A stretch of DNA of 64,000 nucleotides, taken from Pseudomonas purpurea. Its GTDB lineage: Bacteria > Pseudomonadota > Gammaproteobacteria > Pseudomonadales > Pseudomonadaceae. A program made the translations under genes and the position numbers. Numbering within the stretch: position 1 is the first letter of the stretch; each line of letters begins with the position of its first letter. The stretch lies in contig NZ_CP150918.1 in NCBI RefSeq assembly GCF_039908635.1, forward strand, positions 4,666,001 to 4,730,000, written 5' to 3'. This document shows, one piece after another, positions 3,439 to 14,756 of this stretch. The notes beneath the pieces are model-generated. The model saw only the letters and a list, made by a program, of their open reading frames with translations. It was not told the DNA's origin and made no database searches.

Positions 3439-5633
<2,195 letters not shown>

Positions 5634-5699
5634 GATGGAGTTCGTCTAGCAGGGCCGGGAAGTCTAGCGGAAATAGTGAAAATAGACCACGAAACGTGA

Positions 5700-5728
5700 T
5701 TGACCAACGGTAATCTCATCTCTATACT
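5700..5728 (+). promoter_or_regulatory. Sigma70 promoter of the tRNA-Leu gene
   Basis: TTGACC (5700-5705) and TATACT (5723-5728) are separated by exactly 17 bp. The -10 box ends 13 bp before the mature tRNA 5' end. Both hexamers are within one base of consensus. Confidence 0.85.
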
Positions 5729-5741
5729 TCGCCGCCATTGA

Positions 5742-5826
5742 GCCCTGATGGCGGAATTGGTAGACGCGGCGGATTCAAAATCCGTTTTCGAAAGGAGTGG
5801 GAGTTCGAGTCTCCCTCGGGGCACCA
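5742..5826 (+). tRNA. tRNA-Leu, anticodon CAA
   Basis: An 85-nt class II tRNA. The acceptor arm GCCCTGA (5742-5748) pairs with TCGGGGC, followed by an encoded ACCA end at 5823-5826. The anticodon stem GCGGA/TCCGT encloses the loop TTCAAAA, giving anticodon CAA (codon UUG). A long variable arm and the GTTCGAGTC T-loop are present. It has its own promoter and terminator. Accessory DNA begins shortly downstream, which fits the habit of islands inserting near tRNA genes, though no duplicated 3' end was found. Confidence 0.97.
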
Positions 5827-5830
5827 AATT

Positions 5831-5863
5831 AAAAAAGACCTTGAAATTCAAGGTCTTTTTTTT
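5831..5863 (+). terminator. Rho-independent terminator of tRNA-Leu
   Basis: The self-complementary arms AAGACCTTGAA and TTCAAGGTCTT, with a run of eight T residues, lie 5 bp after the tRNA CCA end. The upstream A-run makes it potentially bidirectional. Confidence 0.9.
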
Positions 5864-5979
5864 CGCCTGTAGAAAAGTGCGCCACTCCTGCAGGAGCTGC
5901 CGCAGGTTCAGGCCGCGCTCGGACGGTCTTTTGATCTTCGCATCCTCACCCGACAGGAAATGCCTCAAGGACTCTCCCT

Positions 5980-6309
5980 ATGGAATTGCCACTGGAAACA
6001 GTCGCCCTCTTCTCCCTTAAGCTGGCTTACGAAACGGAAGGCCAAAGCCCGATCCTGCGTGACGATCTGATGATGAACGACTACCAGAGGGACGTATTCG
6101 GCTTGCTGGTGCGCAGAGGTGATGTCGAGACCATCAAGGTCAAAGTGGCTGAATGCCTGGGGCTGGCGCTTGAGGCGATAGGTGGGGCTGGTACGCCGTT
6201 GGGGCGAGAGCTGGATAGATTGTCGATTGATTTCAGCGCTGCGCAGACCATGGAGCAGCTTGATACTCCGCTCATTGCGCTTAAGGATTACTTGAAAGAC
6301 ATTCAGTGA
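5980..6309 (+). CDS. Hypothetical protein of about 109 residues
   Basis: A short acidic, leucine-rich soluble protein (MELPLETVALFSLKL...). There is no signal peptide, membrane span or recognised motif. Base composition and codon use match the core rather than the A+T-rich gene at 6831. A weak AAGGA lies 9-13 bp before the ATG. It stands alone between the tRNA-Leu terminator and a cluster of inverted repeats. I do not recognise the family and assign no function. Confidence 0.65.
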   Translation: MELPLETVALFSLKLAYETEGQSPILRDDLMMNDYQRDVFGLLVRRGDVETIKVKVAECLGLALEAIGGAGTPLGRELDRLSIDFSAAQTMEQLDTPLIALKDYLKDIQ

Positions 6310-6830
6310 ATGATCGGGCTGGGAGTACGCAGGGTGCCCCTTTACACCCTCACTGATCGCTCCCACCTGCGCGACGCAAGTTCATCGAGGTGTAAAAGGC
6401 GCAGCCCGAAGTCAAAACCGGTGTAAGCGCTCCATAAACCCCGTCTATTTTTAACAGGCGGGGTTTAGGAACGCTTACAGTGGTTCCCGCCGAAAACCCA
6501 CCTCTTGTACAGCGATAAAATGGACGACGCCGACACCTGTAAGTGGGAACCATCTAGATGCGCAAAGGAGAAAAGAATTGCCGTTCGAGACGATGGCGAT
6601 TTGCCAATCGCGTGGTATATTCGGGATATGTTGTGCATCCACAGCCAAGTTCTGTAGCTGATTTCCCAAGGAAATTTAATACGATTTTAGTCTGATTTGC
6701 ATCACGACAAGGGTGTACACGTGCTGAGGGAGAAGCGCCAGGGTAAGACCGCAAGCCTCTCCGCCTTCGTGCGACTACATGGTCTGAAACTGGTTTTGCC
6801 TAGGAAAGCATTGAAGGTGCACCTTTTATC
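6310..6830. other. Non-coding gap with nested inverted repeats ahead of the phosphoramidate genes
   Basis: This 520-bp stretch has no convincing gene. Its left part contains several short arms sharing TGTAA in alternating orientation, described separately. The right part (about 6560-6830) shows nothing definite. No RfaH ops element (GGCGGTAG) was found, although the downstream genes look like surface-glycan enzymes. An AAGGTG about 15 bp before the ATG at 6831 may serve as a ribosome site. Confidence 0.5.
6334..6552. repeat. Cluster of three nested inverted repeats
   Basis: Three arm pairs are visible. CCCCTTTACACC (6337-6348) pairs with GGTGTAAAAGG (6389-6399). TGTAAGCG...TAAACCCCG (6422-6443) pairs imperfectly with CGGGGTTTA...CGCTTACA (6459-6479). 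CTTACAG and TGGTTCCC (6474-6488) are mirrored by CTGTAAG and GGGAACCA (6537-6552). The middle hairpin could act as a weak terminator for the gene ending at 6309. I considered an integron attC site, but no RYYYAAC/GTTRRRY core pair was found. Confidence 0.55.
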
Positions 6831-8021
6831 ATGAAAAACGTTTACTTGATCAGCAACGTCAGCAATGGCGGAAAAACATACCTTGAATACCTGCTACCAG
6901 CGCTAAATGCTCTTCGAAATAACTATAATTGCGTAGTGCTTCAAACAAATATTACCGGCTTGAGCAAATATGAAGCAGAGCAGGTTCTAAGTTATCCAGT
7001 CGAGGAGGTAGGGCTGGATTATATCGAAAGCTTAAAATCACAAACAATTATCTCGAATGATGCCTTCGTTGGGTCGCTGCTTGACGAGTCAAATTTCGGA
7101 GTATTTATCGCGCATGGCAACGTCGGCATGCCGCTCAGAGACAAGTATTATTGTTCCAGCTTGTTATCATTTTGGGATGCGATTGTTTCTCCATCCAGAT
7201 CGCTTTTTGGTCTGATGAAAACAGGTCTACAGCTTTACAGGCATGACAGAAACGCGTCGCGTCTAGCCTATGTAGCGAAAATACAGCGATCCGATCTTCG
7301 AAAAACGAGTGCAATATCCACACTGCCAGTTAAACTCCCCGAGTTTTTAAGTTCGCCGCCTGCCTTCCTGCGAACATCTGAGCAGTATGTCGTAGGCATT
7401 CTGCCGACGCAAATAGGAATATGCCCAAGTGGCGCCTCTCTATTTGAAAACATGGAAGTGGTTATTACTGCAGTTAAAACCCAGATTCCTAGTGCAAAAA
7501 TTATTGTGCGACCTTACATGACTGATTTTGAAAATCCGTATGTAAAGGAGATGTGTGAACAGCTGGTCAAGTATCCGTGGATTTCAATAGATTATGCCAA
7601 GGGCAGCAGCAAGGACTTCTACCAGCAGTGTGACACGATCATTACCGACGCTTCGAGCGGTGGTGTTTCGTTTATGCTCAACACATGCAGGCTACCCATT
7701 TATTACGTTCCGTCAGGCAGCGAGAGCCACCCTATCGTTAATGCGTGGCTGGAACAAATGGATAATTTTTTGCCAATCGCTAAAAATGGCAGCGAACTTA
7801 AAGAGCTGATGGGTGGGTTTGAGTTGATTACACCCGAGCAAAGACATTATATATATAAGAAGTTCTACGAGTCAGAATACAGAGACTTTCATCACCCGGA
7901 TGAAGTGTTTCAGGATCTGGTTCATGAGCAGCATGATTCCAGGTTTTGCTACTTTGCGATGCATGCGAATGGAGAAGTCAACGAGAGAACGATCAAGGGC
8001 ACAGAAAACGTGCTGCAATGA
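6831..8021 (+). CDS. CDP-glycerol glycerophosphotransferase-like protein; candidate phosphoramidate or phospho-alditol transferase
   Basis: A 396-residue GT-B-like protein with no signal peptide. Two segments recall the CDP-glycerol:poly(glycerophosphate) glycerophosphotransferase family: an N-terminal region with FIAHGN (around residue 88) and a C-terminal donor-site region DTIITDASSGGVSFML followed by PIYYVPSG. Family members transfer phospho-alditols from CDP-activated donors to glycans. It opens the run that makes a CDP-linked phosphoramidate, so a CDP-type donor is biochemically coherent. That it transfers phosphoramidate is inference. The gene is clearly richer in A+T than its neighbours, which suggests separate acquisition. 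A 52-bp gap separates it from the next gene. Confidence 0.6.
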   Translation: MKNVYLISNVSNGGKTYLEYLLPALNALRNNYNCVVLQTNITGLSKYEAEQVLSYPVEEVGLDYIESLKSQTIISNDAFVGSLLDESNFGVFIAHGNVGMPLRDKYYCSSLLSFWDAIVSPSRSLFGLMKTGLQLYRHDRNASRLAYVAKIQRSDLRKTSAISTLPVKLPEFLSSPPAFLRTSEQYVVGILPTQIGICPSGASLFENMEVVITAVKTQIPSAKIIVRPYMTDFENPYVKEMCEQLVKYPWISIDYAKGSSKDFYQQCDTIITDASSGGVSFMLNTCRLPIYYVPSGSESHPIVNAWLEQMDNFLPIAKNGSELKELMGGFELITPEQRHYIYKKFYESEYRDFHHPDEVFQDLVHEQHDSRFCYFAMHANGEVNERTIKGTENVLQ

Positions 8022-8073
8022 TCGTGTATGAATTCCAATTAAAATTTATAGACTGCATACGAATCAGGTCGAT

Positions 8074-8622
8074 ATGAAAGTTGATTTCATCGGGCAAGTA
8101 GTGTGGATTACAGGGCTGTCGGGTGCAGGAAAATCAACATTAGCCCGGGAGTTTATTGCCGGGCTTCGAAACCAAGGCCACTCGGTCATCATGCTGGACG
8201 GGGATGAACTGCGCGACGTATTTGGCGCAACGGCTGCCCATCCGCAGAATTATGGGCGAGAGGGGCGATTGGCGCTGGCCATGCAATACGCTCATCTGTG
8301 CAGAGTCATTGCCGCTCAAGGGCACACCGTAGTGATCGCTACGATTTCGCTGTTTCGGGAAGTTCATGCCTGGAACCGAGCCCATTTGCCAGGTTACTTC
8401 GAAGTCTACTTGAAGGTGCCGGTGGAGGAACTGCGCCGCAGGGATCCCAAGGGCCTATACCGCCGATTCGATGCGGGCGAGCTGCACGATGTCGCTGGGC
8501 TCGATTTATCGATTGATGAACCGACAGCGGCAGACTGGGTGGTTGAGTTCGAACCTCAGCGTTCCCTGCAAACTTTAACAGATGATTTACTACATCGATT
8601 TTGTAAAAGGAAGTTAGTATGA
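8074..8622 (+). CDS. CysC-family kinase; likely cytidine diphosphoramidate kinase (Cj1415-like)
   Basis: A 182-residue P-loop kinase of the adenylylsulfate kinase fold. Walker A GLSGAGKST is at about residues 14-22, and DGDELRD follows at the position of the APS kinase DGDN motif. In C. jejuni the CysC homologue Cj1415 does not phosphorylate adenylylsulfate but the 3' position of cytidine diphosphoramidate. The genes that follow here supply exactly that substrate, and no sulfate-assimilation gene is nearby, so the phosphoramidate role is favoured. The family alone would also allow APS kinase. It overlaps the methyltransferase start by four bases (ATGA). Confidence 0.75.
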   Translation: MKVDFIGQVVWITGLSGAGKSTLAREFIAGLRNQGHSVIMLDGDELRDVFGATAAHPQNYGREGRLALAMQYAHLCRVIAAQGHTVVIATISLFREVHAWNRAHLPGYFEVYLKVPVEELRRRDPKGLYRRFDAGELHDVAGLDLSIDEPTAADWVVEFEPQRSLQTLTDDLLHRFCKRKLV

Positions 8623-9368
8623 AAACCGAATGGGATTACACCACGCTGGCCGATGCTTATTTGAAACGTCCTGACTACGCAGATGCCGCGATTGATGCAA
8701 TGCTTTCAATTGCAGGTGCCGAGCAAGGCGACAAGTTCTGCGATGTCGGAGCAGGCGTCGCACACCTGACCATGATGCTGGCTGCGCGTGGTTTGAATGT
8801 TGTTGCGGTGGAACCTAATGATGCGATGCGCGCGAATGGCATCAAGCGTACCGCCGACCTGGCCAATGTAAGTTGGCATGAAGGAACGGGCGAAGTCACA
8901 GGACAAACGTCGCAAGCTTTCGACATGGTCACCTTTGGTAGTTCCTTCAATGTCTGCGACCGCCAGCAGGCACTCAAGGAAACCGCGCGCATTCTCAAGC
9001 CACGAGGCTGGTTCGCCTGTATGTGGAATCATCGCCATCTTGATGATCCGATCCAGGCCCGCATCGAAGCCATCATTAAAGAGCGGGTACAAGGTTATGG
9101 CTACGGTACTCGTCGTGAAGATCAAACTGCCGTGATCGATGCCAGTGGGCTTTTCGGTCCTGTTGTTCATCTTGATGCACGTGTCATTCACGAGCAAAGC
9201 ATTGAAGAGTGCCTGGAAGCCTGGCGTTCTCACGCAACACTGGAGCGCCAAGCCGGTGCGAAATTCCATGAGGTGATCAGCGCAATCGATGACTATCTGA
9301 AAAGCCTTCAGACATCCTCGATCCAGATTCCGTACTCGACCAATATCTGGGTTGCTCAGTTGAGATAA
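8619..9368 (+). CDS. SAM-dependent methyltransferase, candidate phosphoramidate O-methyltransferase (Cj1419/Cj1420-like)
   Basis: A 249-residue class I methyltransferase. SAM motif I is DVGAGVAHL (about residues 42-50), with the acidic VVAVEPND strand end after it. In C. jejuni two methyltransferases, Cj1419 and Cj1420, lie directly before the glutamine kinase gene and are thought to supply the O-methyl group of MeOPN. Here there is only one, in the equivalent place. The start overlaps the kinase gene upstream, and the stop TAA shares its last A with the next ATG (TAATG), so the run is tightly coupled. The methyl acceptor is inferred from context. Confidence 0.7.
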   Translation: MKTEWDYTTLADAYLKRPDYADAAIDAMLSIAGAEQGDKFCDVGAGVAHLTMMLAARGLNVVAVEPNDAMRANGIKRTADLANVSWHEGTGEVTGQTSQAFDMVTFGSSFNVCDRQQALKETARILKPRGWFACMWNHRHLDDPIQARIEAIIKERVQGYGYGTRREDQTAVIDASGLFGPVVHLDARVIHEQSIEECLEAWRSHATLERQAGAKFHEVISAIDDYLKSLQTSSIQIPYSTNIWVAQLR

Positions 9369-11689
9369 TGCCGATGGCGCTGCATTTCTCAACCAAGGCT
9401 GGCACATTGGCCAGCCTACAAGAGCGGCTCAAGTCGGCTCGCATTGCGCCGCTGCTGTCGTTCACCGTGAGGGACTGGCAAATCGGTGGGCAAGCCTGTT
9501 TTCGTGATCTCCAGGGACAGCTGGGGGCCGGTCCCTGGATCGTACGCTCCAGTTGTCTGCGCGAAGATGGCGCGCAAGCTTCCTGTGCGGGGGCCTTTCT
9601 CTCGGTCCCTGACGTCAATGAAGCAGGATTGGTATCGGCCGTTGAACAGGTAATCGCAAGTTATGGCGATGTACACCTGGCAGACGAGGTACTGATTCAA
9701 CCGATGTTGGGTAACGTGGTTCGTTCCGGCGTTGCCTTTTCCCACGACCCGAATACCTGCGCGCCGTATCGGGTGGTGAACTGGTCGGAAGGCAGTGACA
9801 CGGCATCTGTCACCGGCGGCATGGGCGGTCGGCTTTGGCAGCAGGCGGCACTTAGCAAAGTGCCGCCACCGCCAAGTTTCGCACCCTTGATTGCCTTGCT
9901 CGAAGAGTTGCTGGCGTTGTTCGATGGCGCACCGGTCGATTGCGAGTTCGCTGTCACACGCGAAGCAGAAGGCGAGGTGTTGTGGCTGTTACAAGCCCGG
10001 CCATTGATTTTGCCAACACCTGCGGAATCCGAAGCAACACAGGCCGATTGCCTGGAAAGTATTCAGCGCAAGGTAGCGCGGGGTATGCAGCCGCATCCAT
10101 TCCTGATGGGGCAGCGTACCGTCTATGGCGTGATGCCGGACTGGAATCCGGCCGAGATTATCGGTATCCGTCCCAAACCGCTGGCGCTCTCGCTGTACCG
10201 GGATTTGGTGACTGACTCAATCTGGGCCTACCAGCGCCACAATTACGGCTACCGCAACTTGCGTAGCTTCCCGCTGATGCCGCATTTCTTCGGGTTGCCG
10301 TACATCGATGTGCGCTTGTCGTTCAACTCCTTCATTCCAGCAGACCTTGATGAGGGACTGGCCGGGCGCTTGGTCGATCACTATATCGATCGGCTGCTGG
10401 CCGAACCGACGCTGCACGATAAGGTGGAGTTCGAGATTGTTTTCTCGTGCTACACATTGGATTTGTCGCAGCGACTGGAGCGTTTGGCCAGTGCCGGTTT
10501 CCTGGAGCACGAGCTTGAGGCCATCAGCACCAGTTTGCGCAAGCTGACCAACCGCATCGTTCACCCCAAGGACGGCCTATGGCGCGCCGATGCAAACAAG
10601 CTCGACATGCTGAATGCGCGACGCGAAGAGTTGCTGGCATCCAACGCCGACCCTTTAGAGCGGATTTACTGGCTGTTGGAAGATGCAAAACGCTACGGCA
10701 CCCTGCCATTCGCCGGTCTGGCCCGCGCCGGCTTCGTCGCGGTGCAGATGCTTAAATCGCTGGTGACGGTGGGAGTGTTCTCGCAGGCTGACTACGATTG
10801 CTTCATGGGGGGTGTCTCAACCGTCAGCGGCCAGTTGGCACGTGACCGAGCGACACTGGACAAGGCGACGTTCCTCGCGCGCTACGGACACTTGCGCCCG
10901 GGCACCTACGACATCCTTTCGCCGCGTTACGATGAAGCACCGGAACTCTACTTCGACTGGACTCAGCGTCCATCCACCCCAGAGCCAGTACAGCCTTTTT
11001 CGCTGACCCTTCCACAGATGCGCGAAATCGTGAAGCAGCAGGAAGCGCACGGCCTGGAGCCTGATCCCGTTGGCTTGTTGGACTTCATGCAAGCCGGTAT
11101 CGAACTGCGCGAGCTGGCCAAGTTCCACTTCACCCGCAATCTCTCGGATGCCTTGGCATTGATTGCTGAAGTAGGCGCCCAGCATGGCATTGGACGCGAA
11201 GACATGGCCTATTGCGACATCAGTGCCTTAAAGGAACTGCACGTTGCAGCTGCCGACCCGAAAGATGTGCTTTTGCGCAGCATTGAACAGGGCAAGGCCC
11301 GCTACGAAAAGACCCTCAAGATATCGCTACCGCCGGTGATTACCCGACCTGAGGATGTCTGGTCCTTCGAGTGGCCGGAAACAGCGCCCAACTTCATCAC
11401 CCAGAAGCAGGTCACAGCCCCCGTGGTGCGCAGCGATGACCGAGAAAAGCTTGCCGGGGCGATTGTCTGCATTCCCAATGCAGACCCAGGTTTTGATTGG
11501 CTGTTTGCCTACCCGATTGCCGGGTTGATAACGGCGTGGGGCGGCGCCAACTCGCACATGGCCATTCGTGCCGGTGAGCTTGGCCTGCCAGCGGTCATCG
11601 GTGCCGGTGAAGTGCTCTACCGCCGCTGGTCGGCGGCTCAGCGCTTGCATCTGGACTGTCCTGGGCGCTGGGTGGAGATGCTGGCATGA
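9368..11689 (+). CDS. L-glutamine kinase of the PEP-synthase/PPDK superfamily (Cj1418-like)
   Basis: A 773-residue three-part enzyme. The N-terminal ATP-grasp half has IVRSSCLREDGAQAS (about residues 55-69) and GNVVRSGVAFSHD. A long central region follows. The C-terminal swivelling phosphohistidine domain ends in GGANSHMAIRAGELGLPAVIG, with the likely catalytic His730. C. jejuni Cj1418 is of similar size and phosphorylates the amide nitrogen of L-glutamine at the expense of ATP, giving AMP and phosphate. This is the first step to phosphoramidate. PEP synthase is unlikely because the PEP-binding barrel domain is missing and the neighbours match the Cj1416-Cj1418 order. The stop overlaps the next ATG. 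Confidence 0.8.
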   Translation: MPMALHFSTKAGTLASLQERLKSARIAPLLSFTVRDWQIGGQACFRDLQGQLGAGPWIVRSSCLREDGAQASCAGAFLSVPDVNEAGLVSAVEQVIASYGDVHLADEVLIQPMLGNVVRSGVAFSHDPNTCAPYRVVNWSEGSDTASVTGGMGGRLWQQAALSKVPPPPSFAPLIALLEELLALFDGAPVDCEFAVTREAEGEVLWLLQARPLILPTPAESEATQADCLESIQRKVARGMQPHPFLMGQRTVYGVMPDWNPAEIIGIRPKPLALSLYRDLVTDSIWAYQRHNYGYRNLRSFPLMPHFFGLPYIDVRLSFNSFIPADLDEGLAGRLVDHYIDRLLAEPTLHDKVEFEIVFSCYTLDLSQRLERLASAGFLEHELEAISTSLRKLTNRIVHPKDGLWRADANKLDMLNARREELLASNADPLERIYWLLEDAKRYGTLPFAGLARAGFVAVQMLKSLVTVGVFSQADYDCFMGGVSTVSGQLARDRATLDKATFLARYGHLRPGTYDILSPRYDEAPELYFDWTQRPSTPEPVQPFSLTLPQMREIVKQQEAHGLEPDPVGLLDFMQAGIELRELAKFHFTRNLSDALALIAEVGAQHGIGREDMAYCDISALKELHVAAADPKDVLLRSIEQGKARYEKTLKISLPPVITRPEDVWSFEWPETAPNFITQKQVTAPVVRSDDREKLAGAIVCIPNADPGFDWLFAYPIAGLITAWGGANSHMAIRAGELGLPAVIGAGEVLYRRWSAAQRLHLDCPGRWVEMLA

Positions 11690-12303
11690 AGGTTGTTGCC
11701 GTCAGTCAGCGTGTGGACGTGTTGCCTGAGCGCGGCGAAAACCGTGATGCACTGGACCAGTGTCTGGTCAGCTTTCTTCTGGCTGCCGGTTTTATACCGG
11801 TGCCGGTACCCAACGGGTTGCACCTGCGAACACTCGATGGGGGGGTAACTCAGGATGCCCTTGATGGCTGGCTAAACGCGGTATCCCCCCAGGCCATCGT
11901 TCTTTCGGGCGGAAATGACATCGGGCAGTGTTCGGCACGCGACCTGACCGAAGGCAGGCTGCTTGACCATGCACGATCCCACAACCTGCCAGTACTCGGA
12001 ATTTGCCGGGGCATGCAGATGATGGCGCACTCGGAAGGTGGCGAACTAAAACCGGTTACAGGTCATGTGCGAACCCGGCACACGTTATCAGGGCAAATAG
12101 TTGCCGAGGTGAACAGTTATCACAGTTTTGCCCTTGCCGGCTGCCCGGAAGGGTTTGAGGTTTTGGCGCGAAGTGAAGATGGGGAAATCGAAGCCATCCG
12201 ACACCTCAGCCGGCCCTGGGAAGGCTGGATGTGGCACCCGGAACGAGAGGCGGTTTTTGCATCGCACGACGTTCATCGATTGAAGCAGTTATTCGGTGAC
12301 TAA
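11686..12303 (+). CDS. Class I glutamine amidotransferase-type hydrolase, likely gamma-glutamyl-CDP-amidate hydrolase (Cj1417-like)
   Basis: A 205-residue stand-alone glutaminase-fold protein of the peptidase C26 type. The catalytic triad is visible: nucleophile Cys107 in GICRGMQ, then His184 and Glu186 in WHPERE. SGGNDIG gives the oxyanion region. In C. jejuni Cj1417 removes glutamate from CDP-L-glutamine and releases cytidine diphosphoramidate. No synthetase partner domain that would use ammonia is adjacent, which supports a hydrolase role. It overlaps the glutamine kinase by four bases and is followed after 84 bp by the cytidylyltransferase, the same order as Cj1418-Cj1417-Cj1416. Confidence 0.8.
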   Translation: MKVVAVSQRVDVLPERGENRDALDQCLVSFLLAAGFIPVPVPNGLHLRTLDGGVTQDALDGWLNAVSPQAIVLSGGNDIGQCSARDLTEGRLLDHARSHNLPVLGICRGMQMMAHSEGGELKPVTGHVRTRHTLSGQIVAEVNSYHSFALAGCPEGFEVLARSEDGEIEAIRHLSRPWEGWMWHPEREAVFASHDVHRLKQLFGD

Positions 12304-12387
12304 AACCTGTATCTGCCTAAGCGGTGGCACTTGGAGCCGAACTCGCCGAGACGAATTCCATTCGAATATTCATGAGGTAGAACTGTT

Positions 12388-13101
12388 GTGAAAGCCATTA
12401 TTTTGGCTGCCGGACGTGGCAGCCGCATGAAAAGCCTCACGGATGAACGTCCCAAGTGCATGGTCGAGTTGCGGGGCAAGACACTGCTGGAGTGGCAGCT
12501 TGCGGCGCTGCACGCTGCAGGCGTTCGAGAGATAGCCATCGTTACGGGTTACAAACGCGAGTTGCTGGCGGACCAAGGGCTGATCGAATTCCATAACTCA
12601 CGCTGGGCGCAAACCAATATGGTGTCGTCATTGGCGTGTGCTGAAACCTGGTTGCAGGCAGAGCCGTGCATCGTGAGTTATTCCGATATCTTCTACAGCC
12701 CTGCAGCGGTCCAGTCGTTGATGACATGCAAGGCTTCCCTGGCAGTCACCTATGACCCGAATTGGCTGGAGCTTTGGACACAGCGTTTTGGCAATCCATT
12801 ACTGGATGCAGAAACGTTCCGCCTGACAGCTGCTGACACCTTGGCCGAAATCGGCAACAAACCAGAATCGGCAGACGATATTCAGGGCCAATACATGGGG
12901 CTTTTGCGCTTCACGCCTGAGGGTTGGGCAGAAGTCGTTCGGCTTCGCTCGGCATTAACCCCGGAGCAGTGTGACAACGTGCATATGACGAACACCCTTC
13001 AGCACGTCATTGATGCGGGTCAGGTCCCGATACAAGCCGTTCCTTACACAGGAGAATGGGGAGAGGTCGACTCTTCTGAAGATCTCTTCTTGTATCAATA
13101 A
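12388..13101 (+). CDS. Nucleotidyltransferase, likely CTP:phosphoglutamine cytidylyltransferase (Cj1416-like)
   Basis: A 237-residue sugar-nucleotidyltransferase fold. The N-terminal signature LAAGRGSRMKSLTDERPKC contains the glycine-rich NTP loop and the conserved lysine, and VSYSDIFY supplies a metal-binding aspartate. Cj1416 transfers CMP from CTP to phosphorylated glutamine, giving CDP-L-glutamine. The start is GTG at 12388 with GAGG about 12 bp upstream; the first in-frame ATG would delete the signature. It closes the co-directional run. A sugar-phosphate or phosphocholine nucleotidyltransferase is the fallback reading on fold alone. Confidence 0.75.
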   Translation: MKAIILAAGRGSRMKSLTDERPKCMVELRGKTLLEWQLAALHAAGVREIAIVTGYKRELLADQGLIEFHNSRWAQTNMVSSLACAETWLQAEPCIVSYSDIFYSPAAVQSLMTCKASLAVTYDPNWLELWTQRFGNPLLDAETFRLTAADTLAEIGNKPESADDIQGQYMGLLRFTPEGWAEVVRLRSALTPEQCDNVHMTNTLQHVIDAGQVPIQAVPYTGEWGEVDSSEDLFLYQ

Positions 13102-13157
13102 CCGCCCTCACCTGTTCATTACCCTGCAACTACCTACCCCCTCCAACGCCCAAAAGA

Positions 13158-13208
13158 AATACAGGAACAGACCACGATTATGGGTGTGAGAAAACGTGGT
13201 CTGCCTCC
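13158..13208. repeat. Hairpin repeat, copy 1 of a pair flanking the hydrolase gene
   Basis: CAGACCACG (13168-13176) pairs with CGTGGTCTG (13195-13203). A second copy with nearly the same 50-bp sequence lies at 14096-14148 in the same orientation, so the two bracket the gene between them. Confidence 0.75.
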
Positions 13209-13292
13209 ATGCTTTGCCCAGCGCTGCGGATTGGAGTTGTCGTCGGCTTATCTTTTTCCACGGACGGTACGGAACACACAAAGGAGAACACT

Positions 13293-14067
13293 ATGAAGCA
13301 GACAATATTCGCCGGAACGCAGGGCAATCTTGCGGTGGTTGAAGCAGGACATGGCGAAGGTTTGCCGGTGCTCTTCCTCCACGCAGACTCCGGTCGAGCA
13401 AGCCAGTGGGCGGAAATGCTTGAGCCGATCGGACGAGACAGGAAAGTCTATGCCCTTGATTCACGGGGCAGCGGCGACAGCTCCCCGGCCGCGAATGGAG
13501 ACTATTCATATACAGGACGCGCGCAAGACATCATCGATACAGCCGCAGCCTTCAAGCTTGAGCGTTTCATCATCGTGGCCCACAGCGGAAGTGGCGCCGC
13601 AGCGCTGGACTATGCCGCCAGATACGCCGACCGCGTGGCTGGCTTGTTCTTGCTTGATCCCGCGACAGATCCAAGGGCACTTCCTGATGAGGTTCGCGCC
13701 GGAATGCTGGAAGCGCTTGCGGGGGCCTGCGAGCCTTGATGTGCAACAGGGGTTCTATGCGACGATCGCGGGCAATAACGCAAAGGTAAAGTCCAGAGTT
13801 CTGGAAGATTGTACTGCGGTCGATGCGGCTGCACGGTTGGGGTTTGCGGTGGCGTTCGCCAATTGGAACCCCGAGTCCGCGCTGGATGCATGGAAGGGTC
13901 CGGTTTTTATCCTGGTCAGTAGCGCGAACGACAACCCCAATGCGCTTTACGCGTTACGACCGGAGCTACCCCACGCCGTGGTGGCTAATACGGGACACTG
14001 GATACAGCTCGACCAGCCCGAAAAGGTCGAGCGGGAAATACGGCGTTTCATCGCTAGCGTTCGATAG
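13293..14067 (+). pseudogene. Alpha/beta hydrolase, interrupted by a single-base frameshift
   Basis: The ATG at 13293 follows AAGGAG (13281-13286) and opens MKQTIFAGTQGNLAVVE. The oxyanion region FLHADSG, the nucleophile elbow AHSGSG and a strand with LFLLDPATD are in the first frame, which stops at 13739. The remainder, ending in the catalytic-histidine segment NTGHWIQLDQPEKVE, is in another frame and runs to 14067. One extra base in the G5-CC tract at 13721-13727 accounts for the break; without it the protein is about 257 residues, normal for the fold. Substrate unknown. It is bracketed by a pair of hairpin repeats. Sequencing error is as likely as a true null. Confidence 0.8.
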
Positions 14068-14095
14068 CGAAGTAGTGGTCAAGAAGTAGTTGGGA

Positions 14096-14148
14096 GATAC
14101 AGGGGCAGACCACGATTACGGGTGTGAGTAAAACGTGGTCTGTCCCCG
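14096..14148. repeat. Hairpin repeat, copy 2 of a pair flanking the hydrolase gene
   Basis: GGGGCAGACCACG (14102-14114) pairs with CGTGGTCTGTCCCC (14135-14148). The core and loop match copy 1 at 13158-13208 except for a few positions and one extra T. Confidence 0.75.
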
Positions 14149-14250
14149 CTTCCTCCCTGATACCGGTCGGTGAGGTGTGAAGTCTGCGGGAGCGGGCTGC
14201 TTGGGATGATGGCTGGGCATTCAGCATTGGTGTTGGCTGATCTGGCGCTA

Positions 14251-14275
14251 TCGCGAGCAAGCTCGCTCCCACAGG
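14251..14275. repeat. Pseudomonas REP-type hairpin, single copy
   Basis: TCGCGAGCAAGCTCGCTCCCACAGG shape: GCGAGC and GCTCGC arms followed by TCCCAC, the usual Pseudomonas REP head. The same family recurs at 52427-52519 and 52984-53009. Confidence 0.7.
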
Positions 14276-14305
14276 GGTTGTGCGTGCTGACTGGAATTTG
14301 GGATT

Positions 14306-14327
14306 AACCCCGAGTTTTCGGGGTTTC
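14306..14327. terminator. Terminator-like hairpin after the hydrolase
   Basis: AACCCCGA and TCGGGGTT pair around a GTTT loop and are followed by a short T run. It is about 240 bp past the hydrolase stop and could end readthrough before fds. Confidence 0.55.
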
Positions 14328-14756
14328 AATATTCGAGGCAAAGCGAATGCTGAGAAATCAGTTTCGAAGTTTCCACCGTCGAATTCCTCCCGGTGAGCTC
14401 AGCCATCATCTTCCCCGCCAGCAATTCATTGCGCATAACCCCTCAAGCAAAAAAGCATAACAACCCCTTCATCGACGACGCCTTCGACTACGCTCTTCTA
14501 GACTCAACGATTGGTCGTAGAAAGAACCAAGCACGTCGCTTTTGTGCAGTTGAATCAATGCCAGCGTGGCAAGCTGCGATTTATGCCCTGAAGAGGTGCG
14601 GCAAAGACCGCACCGGGCCCAACAAGATGCCCGCTCAGGGTGCCTGGCCAACGGCCTGAAAATGCCACGATACCGTGACGTGGTGTGAATGCCGCAGCCG
14701 ACACTTTCGGACAACCGACAACCGCCTGGTGTGTCCGTGACCGTGAGGAATGCTGT

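Follow-up and report, generated by a model that had tools for sequence, protein, structure and literature searches.

A 64,000-nucleotide stretch of the Pseudomonas purpurea genome (contig NZ_CP150918.1, positions 4,666,001 to 4,730,000; here called the window) carries a cassette of six genes that we propose, with a probability of roughly three in four, to make a phosphoramidate group and transfer it to an acceptor. The genes, named T1, K, MT, GK, H, and CT in their order, are intact open reading frames (ORFs), tightly packed on the plus strand, and fill positions 6831-13101. Judged by their protein families, the last five very probably correspond to the Campylobacter jejuni donor pathway for O-methyl phosphoramidate (MeOPN), a rare P-N modification found on Campylobacter capsules; in this pathway Cj1415-Cj1418 are the same four types of donor enzyme and Cj1421 and Cj1422 are the transferases. 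The cassette very likely works like the MeOPN pathway and is very likely homologous to it. A first-pass annotation of this DNA had described a complete MeOPN-type donor pathway in an accessory region, and this description holds: the ORFs are intact and match the families, their order is the same in nine of nine genomes, a GK gene has all four partners nearby in 57 of 68 loci, and the site is near-empty in two of five relatives. The same annotation counted five consecutive genes; all five pathway genes are present, and the sixth gene of the stretch, the likely transferase T1, had been omitted. What the present analysis adds to the annotation is the breadth of the module, its portability, and the candidacies of T1 as transferase and of MT for O-methylation.

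A broader proposal goes with this finding, and we rate it only a shade above even. Phosphoramidate tagging would be widespread and modular, with a K-MT-GK-H-CT module that crosses phyla and is served by interchangeable transferases of two unrelated folds, one sulfotransferase-type and the other GT-B glycerophosphotransferase-type; T1 would found a Pseudomonas group of the GT-B class, and MT would be the missing phosphoramidate O-methyltransferase. If true, many environmental bacteria form P-N bonds, and transferase and methyltransferase become named, testable genes in harmless pseudomonads.

Gene content and proposed donor enzymes

In the scheme that we infer from these families, GK (9368-11689, 773 amino acids), a proposed L-glutamine kinase resembling Cj1418, would take the first donor step. 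CT (12388-13101, 237 amino acids, GTG start), a proposed cytidine triphosphate (CTP):phosphoglutamine cytidylyltransferase resembling Cj1416, would couple the GK product to the cytidine monophosphate (CMP) of CTP and yield cytidine diphosphate (CDP)-L-glutamine. From this, H (11686-12303, 205 amino acids), a class-I amidotransferase/C26-like hydrolase and proposed Cj1417-like gamma-glutamyl-CDP-amidate hydrolase, would take off glutamate to leave CDP-phosphoramidate (CDP-NH2). K (8074-8622, 182 amino acids) is similar to CysC, the adenosine 5'-phosphosulfate (APS) kinase; as the proposed Cj1415-like 3'-kinase it would phosphorylate the ribose 3'-OH of CDP-NH2, giving a donor that resembles 3'-phosphoadenosine 5'-phosphosulfate (PAPS). 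T1 (6831-8021, 396 amino acids), a GT-B-fold protein, would move the phosphoramidate group onto an acceptor hydroxyl, most likely on a glycan or its precursor, and MT (8619-9368, 249 amino acids), a class-I S-adenosylmethionine (SAM) methyltransferase, would O-methylate the phosphoramidate either ahead of its transfer or once it is attached. Papers by Taylor and Raushel reportedly describe the individual reactions of Cj1416 and Cj1417.

Neighbouring genes of the cassette overlap or lie within 85 bases of each other, so a single operon is likely; consensus promoters and terminators for the cassette were not commoner than in shuffled sequence. When neighbourhoods in other pseudomonads were compared, all nine T1-bearing genomes among the 199 Pseudomonas genomes searched had these six genes in an unchanged order. 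The order methyltransferase-1418-1417-1416 is presumably shared with C. jejuni, by gene number. Unlike the C. jejuni locus, the Pseudomonas cassette has no recognised capsule gene beside it, places K upstream of MT, is led by the GT-B-type T1, and encodes an H protein below the cut-off of its family model, and modules related to it carry two classes of transferase.

Protein families were called with Pfam and NCBIfam at E 0.01, using the curated NCBIfam cut-offs. GK scores 1000 bits on NF004508 (cut-off 501), a model titled 'hypothetical protein' to which we assume Cj1418 to belong. It has only the domains PF01326 (PPDK_N) and PF00391 (PEP-utilizers); the phosphoenolpyruvate (PEP)/pyruvate-binding domain, which we take to be PF02896, was not found in GK by Pfam at this threshold. 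On the PEP synthase model TIGR01418 it reaches 27.8 bits, the cut-off being 739.75, and with no such domain and such a score GK is rejected as a PEP synthase or pyruvate phosphate dikinase (PPDK). H730, within GGANSHMAIR, is invariant in the 31 and the 25 aligned rows of two alignments. The structure model of GK (predicted local distance difference test, pLDDT, 84.8; predicted template modelling score, pTM, 0.82) is mostly helical in its middle part, where long helices span roughly residues 222 to 650, flanked by the ATP-binding and phosphohistidine domains; a barrel is not evident from the secondary structure. Glutamine would be the substrate suggested by this family placement. Cj1418 was itself earlier annotated as PEP synthase or PPDK, according to the accessible part of one paper (PMC10971088).

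K scores 223 bits on NF004041/PRK05541 (cut-off 127) and 98.7 bits on TIGR00455 apsK, under the cut-off of 138.7; on PF01583, two other genes of the genome reach 175 and 168 bits and K reaches 100. K20 is present in 74/74 sequences, N101 and R102 each in 73/74, and W100 in 66/74, whereas an APS-kinase-like protein of the host (L142) has A-R where K-like proteins keep N101-R102 and F at the position of W100. The low apsK score and the two higher-scoring APS-kinase-family genes in the same genome led us to reject K as an APS kinase. The ALTERNATIVES offered by the first-pass annotation, PEP synthase and APS kinase, are both disfavoured by scores (27.8 against 739.75 and 98.7 against 138.7 bits) and, for GK, by domains. 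That the genes simply encode a PEP synthase, an APS kinase, and a sugar nucleotidyltransferase agrees with public names of relatives, such as 'phosphoenolpyruvate synthase' and 'adenylyl-sulfate kinase'; with the domain missing, both scores under those equivalog cut-offs, and two better APS-kinase candidates in the genome, it is almost certainly wrong. If the phosphoramidate reading is true, these public names need correction.

The best NCBIfam match of H is NF045546, gamma-glutamyl-CDP-amidate hydrolase (E 7e-26), and each residue of its putative triad, C107, H184, and E186, is found in 79/79 sequences. CT matches NTP_transf_3 (E 1.8e-20) and is a MobA-like nucleotidyltransferase; its best match among PDB sequences is 1jyk, a CTP:phosphocholine cytidylyltransferase (E 2.5e-10), in a superfamily that is broad. 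G9, G11, R13, K23, and D100 of CT are kept in 80/80 sequences, and R10 and S12 in 75/80. The putative catalytic residues of every donor step, in GK, H, CT, and K, are intact, their roles presumably being those known from the respective enzyme families.

Two points weigh against the pathway assignment. H scores 91.5 bits on NF045546, short of the cut-off of 250, and the likeness to Cj1415-Cj1418 comes from family models and not from sequence comparison with the Cj proteins. It is because of this score, and because alignment with Cj1415-Cj1418 was not direct, that the cassette is said to work like the MeOPN pathway and is not filed as orthologous to it. The same two points, together with a phosphocholine cytidylyltransferase as the best solved relative of CT, speak for a changed chemistry, in which GK phosphorylates another compound, CT makes a LicC-like CDP head group, and the product contains no P-N bond. 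Such a chemistry is very unlikely in view of the linkage of both H and CT to GK (64 of 68 loci) and of the invariant putative triad of H; a GK-family kinase, a CDP-forming enzyme, and a glutamyl hydrolase would together best fit a glutamine-derived amidate.

Candidate methyltransferase and transferase

MT matches Methyltransf_11 (E 1.8e-13) and is the most conserved of the six cassette proteins. Over 16 distinct cassettes, a set that omits L042, where two ORFs share T1, and the incomplete L067, the median identity to the window protein is 93% for MT, 87% for GK, 81% for CT, 77% for K, 75% for H, and 59% for T1. The first-pass annotation had made MT the counterpart of Cj1419/Cj1420, which lends it no proven function; the accessible part of a 2025 paper lists no assigned function for either gene (PMC11800397). 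Because Cj1419 and Cj1420 have no assigned function, MT is well placed as a candidate O-methyltransferase and would serve the phosphoramidate O-methylation step. Methyl phosphoramidate decoration is called a step still to be elucidated in the available text of another 2025 paper (PMC12409886). Against this role stands that MT is not universal, seven of 68 loci having K, H, and CT and no MT match; in two of the seven (L101 and L110) another methyltransferase-domain protein is encoded downstream of CT.

T1 was compared with PDB sequences by its own sequence, with nothing useful found. Its structure model (pLDDT 88.6, pTM 0.87) has a GT-B fold, for which Foldseek returns the capsule polymerase 8a0m as best match (E 4e-10) and TagF 3l7j (E 1e-8). 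In hhalign, T1 aligned with PF04464-type proteins at probabilities of 94.5 (E 8e-8) and 98.1 (E 7e-14), both being single-pair E-values. Profile comparison and fold thus relate T1 remotely to the CDP-glycerol glycerophosphotransferases. It shares the GT-B fold and a remote profile kinship with TagF, TarL, and capsule polymerases such as 8a0m (PF04464); unlike these, T1 is unmatched by PF04464, which at E 1 matched none of 50 T1 homologues, and its proposed cargo is phosphoramidate and not polyol phosphate. H95-G96, R227-P228-Y229, and T272-D273-x-S275 are invariant in the 50 homologues. A single metagenome protein, P0175, is a fusion: its N-terminal part is a cytidylyltransferase 71% identical to CT over 237 amino acids, and it also has a Glyphos_transf domain that scores 22.8 bits, just over the gathering score of 22.1. 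Together with the linkage of T1 to the module, the genes in its slot elsewhere, and the scatter of transferase classes over the kinase tree (both described below), this makes T1 probably the phosphoramidate transferase and the best candidate for that role.

Several observations pull the other way. T1 has no Pfam or NCBIfam match at E 0.01; ranked by Z, its nearest folds are uridine diphosphate N-acetylglucosamine (UDP-GlcNAc) 2-epimerases, tied with TagF; the P0175 fusion could reflect a lost stop codon; and the link of proteins P0171-P0178 to T1 is one of profile comparison only, because the profile with which they were collected already included the Paludibacterium protein L057. T1 might instead build the acceptor, with the phosphoramidate transferase encoded elsewhere. 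The GT-B fold is indeed common to many glycosyltransferases and epimerases, and strain 81-176 of C. jejuni has one of its transferase genes far downstream of the biosynthesis locus, as the accessible part of a 2014 paper has it (PMC3907429). This alternative is nonetheless unlikely: T1 accompanies the module in nine of nine genomes and over eight flank clusters, a Glyphos_transf domain is fused to CT in P0175, and sulfotransferase-type proteins, fitting a PAPS-like donor, occupy the same slot elsewhere.

Deletions of Cj1421 and Cj1422 lead to loss of MeOPN on two sugars, and transferases of low similarity to Cj1421/Cj1422 were thought possible in 2014 (accessible parts of PMC11800397 and PMC12096443, and of PMC3907429, respectively). 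The literature covered, in which most subscription papers are not included and sources are represented by parts of their text, describes neither a Pseudomonas module of this kind nor any phosphoramidate transferase of the GT-B type, which is no proof of absence. Many phages recognise the phosphoramidate tag in C. jejuni, according to the available part of a 2022 review (PMC9561416). It might be speculated that the divergence of T1 (median 59%, against 93% for MT) reflects phage pressure.

Distribution of the module and the gene beside K

Scanned once, a collection of genomes at species level yielded 549 pattern matches, of which 474 encode a relative of the kinase; the best 80 were kept. Linkage was tallied in 68 of these 80 loci, the 12 with less than 2.6 kb on a side being left out, by counting matches of at least 50 bits that start within 7 kb. 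Near GK lay K in 65, an MT-like ORF in 59, H in 64, and CT in 65 loci. The GK relatives of two Magnetococcales loci (L069 and L088) are 73-74% identical and have no other module gene within 7 kb, and in L080 H is absent from the vicinity of GK. GK genes over the cut-off were found in 15 of 398 Pseudomonadota genomes, one of them passing only after two pieces were joined, and in none of 14 controls; the remaining GK matches among those listed for the 398 genomes score below 80 bits. Among relatives, 7 of 95 had such a gene. In a protein search, 7234 of the 8000 candidates scored had an E-value no worse than 0.001.

A kinase tree was built from the window and 55 of the 80 named loci, among which six phylum labels occur. 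It does not strictly follow phylum, which fits transfer and is no proof of it. No Campylobacter is found among the best 80 of the 474 kinase-encoding stretches, and the module is not Campylobacter-specific. The first-pass annotation had called this modification known mainly from Campylobacter; the statement stands for the published chemistry and fails for the genes, with 474 kinase-encoding stretches and six phylum labels in 55 loci. The accessible part of the 2022 review gives the glutamine kinase as C. jejuni-specific (PMC9561416), and according to that of the 2014 paper, 13 of 30 Campylobacter strains have orthologues of cj1416-1418 (PMC3907429). Outside Campylobacter, phosphoramide has been described on the lipopolysaccharide (LPS) of the Gram-negative Xanthomonas campestris and Shewanella MR-4, with no gene assignment given in the accessible parts of the sources (PMC3907429, PMC8042644), unlike the present cassette, which is known from genes alone.

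The gene upstream of K proved to vary. Among 36 loci without T1, it was of the sulfotransferase type in 12 and a Glyphos_transf match in 7, at E 0.01; nine of the 12 and all seven, respectively, scored over the gathering score. The sample derives from 43 listed ORFs without a core-gene match, of which L071, L080, L082, and L083 (doubtful or short) and L101, L102, and L104 (near-copies of L100) were left out; L101, scanned apart, gave a Glyphos_transf match. Another eleven loci have no same-strand ORF in the slot and are outside the 36. As controls, 36 ORFs lying beyond CT were chosen from these loci, and three that were slot genes themselves were dropped; neither transferase family was among the 25 commonest in the 33 scanned. 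Because one-member families were not all shown, the controls may carry at most one of each. Either class was thus found in 19/36 slots against at most 2/33 controls (one-sided p 1.8e-5), or in 16/36 slots if only matches over the gathering score are counted (p 2.4e-4); both p values are optimistic because the loci are not independent.

The transferase class is scattered over the kinase tree. L052, with a sulfotransferase-type gene, adjoins L059, with a GT-B gene (support 99), and L076, also with a sulfotransferase-type gene, adjoins L077 (support 100), the sulfotransferase matches of L052 and L076 being under the gathering score. L050 adjoins L053 (support 87), whose GT-B gene lies outside the K slot. 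The clade nearest the T1 cassettes (support 94) includes L050 and L094, each clearly of the sulfotransferase type. All this is most simply read as one fixed donor module whose transferases can be exchanged; K-MT-GK-H-CT would be portable, and the transferase that joins it would set the acceptor. Since 12 of 36 loci place a sulfotransferase-type gene beside K, it is suggested that the 3'-phospho-CDP donor is used like PAPS, and sulfotransferase types fit a 3'-phosphorylated, PAPS-like donor. The cassette shares with PAPS synthesis and its sulfotransferases (CysC, Sulfotransfer_1/3) the CysC-like K and these adjacent genes. It differs from them in that K stays under the apsK cut-off, the cassette has no sulfate adenylyltransferase, and T1 is not sulfotransferase-like.

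Some of the slot data weigh against the main explanation: 17 of the 36 slots have neither transferase type at E 0.01, three of the 12 sulfotransferase matches (L052, L076, and L091) are under the gathering score, three of the seven glycerophosphotransferase slots (L031, L100, and L110) seem to belong to a single lineage, and the tallies treat related loci as independent. Two further sulfotransferase matches, L096 (E 0.027) and L116 (E 0.051), were too weak to count.

A few GK relatives stand apart. Pseudomonas sp. CFII64 has two GK copies on one contig, one (L038) with K, MT, H, and CT and the other (L067) with T1 and MT and without K, H, and CT nearby. The distant GK proteins of L030, L034, and L036 have about 1000 residues, of which about 200 are extra at the N-terminus (no Pfam match for those of L030 and L034), and no K in the locus; in L034 a Glyphos_transf gene directly follows CT. 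A plasmid of Cupriavidus taiwanensis (L035) encodes a GK relative about 8 kb from nifK, in a locus that has neither H nor CT. The phage search gave a single record, MT837632.1, with a GK relative of 33.8% identity at 676-2988; it is an unannotated 9.5-kb record labelled as bacteriophage from human faeces.

Acceptor and insertion site

The first-pass annotation had left the acceptor between a glycan and a small molecule. Reading the translations of the ORFs in window 1-22000 by eye revealed no recognisable capsule gene, the remainder of the window being covered by ORF length, and the near flanks do not place the cassette in a capsule locus. In P. taiwanensis (L109), a related cluster lies after flgK and a flagellin-family gene and before a DegT aminotransferase. 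Clusters laid out like it (L031, L101, and L110) have Glyphos_transf genes by K and ORFs upstream of GK that are alike in size, a likeness of size only; these two features suggest flagellar glycans as acceptor in L109-like clusters. Among the 33 control ORFs, FliD was found in two and DegT in five.

The donor pathway may also be right and the product a small molecule, like phosphoramidon or phaseolotoxin, in which case the acceptor used by T1 would be small as well. In nine of nine genomes the cassette is self-contained, and it occurs in eight flank clusters over 17 loci, and Pseudomonas does make phosphoramidate natural products, the phaseolotoxins, according to the accessible part of PMC4887976. 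However, no cassette protein passes the cut-off for a peptide synthetase, ligase, or exporter family, the kin of T1 are polyol-phosphate transferases, and related clusters adjoin the flagellar and sugar genes just described, which makes a small-molecule product distinctly unlikely. A glycan is the favoured acceptor, and we name none in particular.

Judged from the translations of window 1-22000, the cassette presumably lies between secDF-yajC-tgt-queA-tRNA-Leu and formate-dehydrogenase-type genes. A variable stretch at 6317-14492, which is missing from two relatives, contains repeats and an alpha/beta-hydrolase gene that is probably broken, in addition to the cassette. In the first of these (L132, genome G044), homology to the window stops at 6313 and resumes at 14495, with about 110 bp between; in the second (L134, G058), it stops at 6316 and resumes at 14493, with about 1.1 kb between, including a repeat. 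Three others (L133, L135, and L141) have about 5 to 6 kb of other DNA at the site. As two of the five relatives compared are near-empty and three hold other DNA, the cassette is read as an insertion at a variable site. With 15 other Pseudomonas loci, window 1-22000 shares, dispersed repeats apart, a block of the six genes and at most about 200 bases upstream. By nucleotide similarity of their flanks, the 17 Pseudomonas loci including the window fall into the eight clusters, a number in which one site may be represented twice by diverged copies and which takes in the partial cassette L067.

A tRNA-Leu(caa) gene found by ARAGORN at 5742-5826 on the plus strand lies outside the cassette, the insertion starting about 0.5 kb downstream of it. 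The repeats found in window 5600-14700 include no direct repeat of this tRNA gene, and Pfam found no integrase among the eight proteins of the area that were scanned; with this offset, an integrative element borne by the tRNA-Leu gene was rejected. The content between the tRNA-Leu side and the formate-dehydrogenase-type genes differs among Pseudomonas genomes, as it would at an insertion hotspot. The alpha/beta-hydrolase gene (13209-14067) seems split over the overlapping ORFs 13209-13739 and 13330-14067, by a frameshift or a sequencing error; the Pfam scan covered the first of the two. Copies of an imperfect repeat of about 55 bp lie on either side of this gene, at 13156-13208 and 14094-14147. 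The sequence at about 14185-14285 has copies of about 75-90% identity at many places in many of 59 Pseudomonas genomes and is probably a dispersed repeat.

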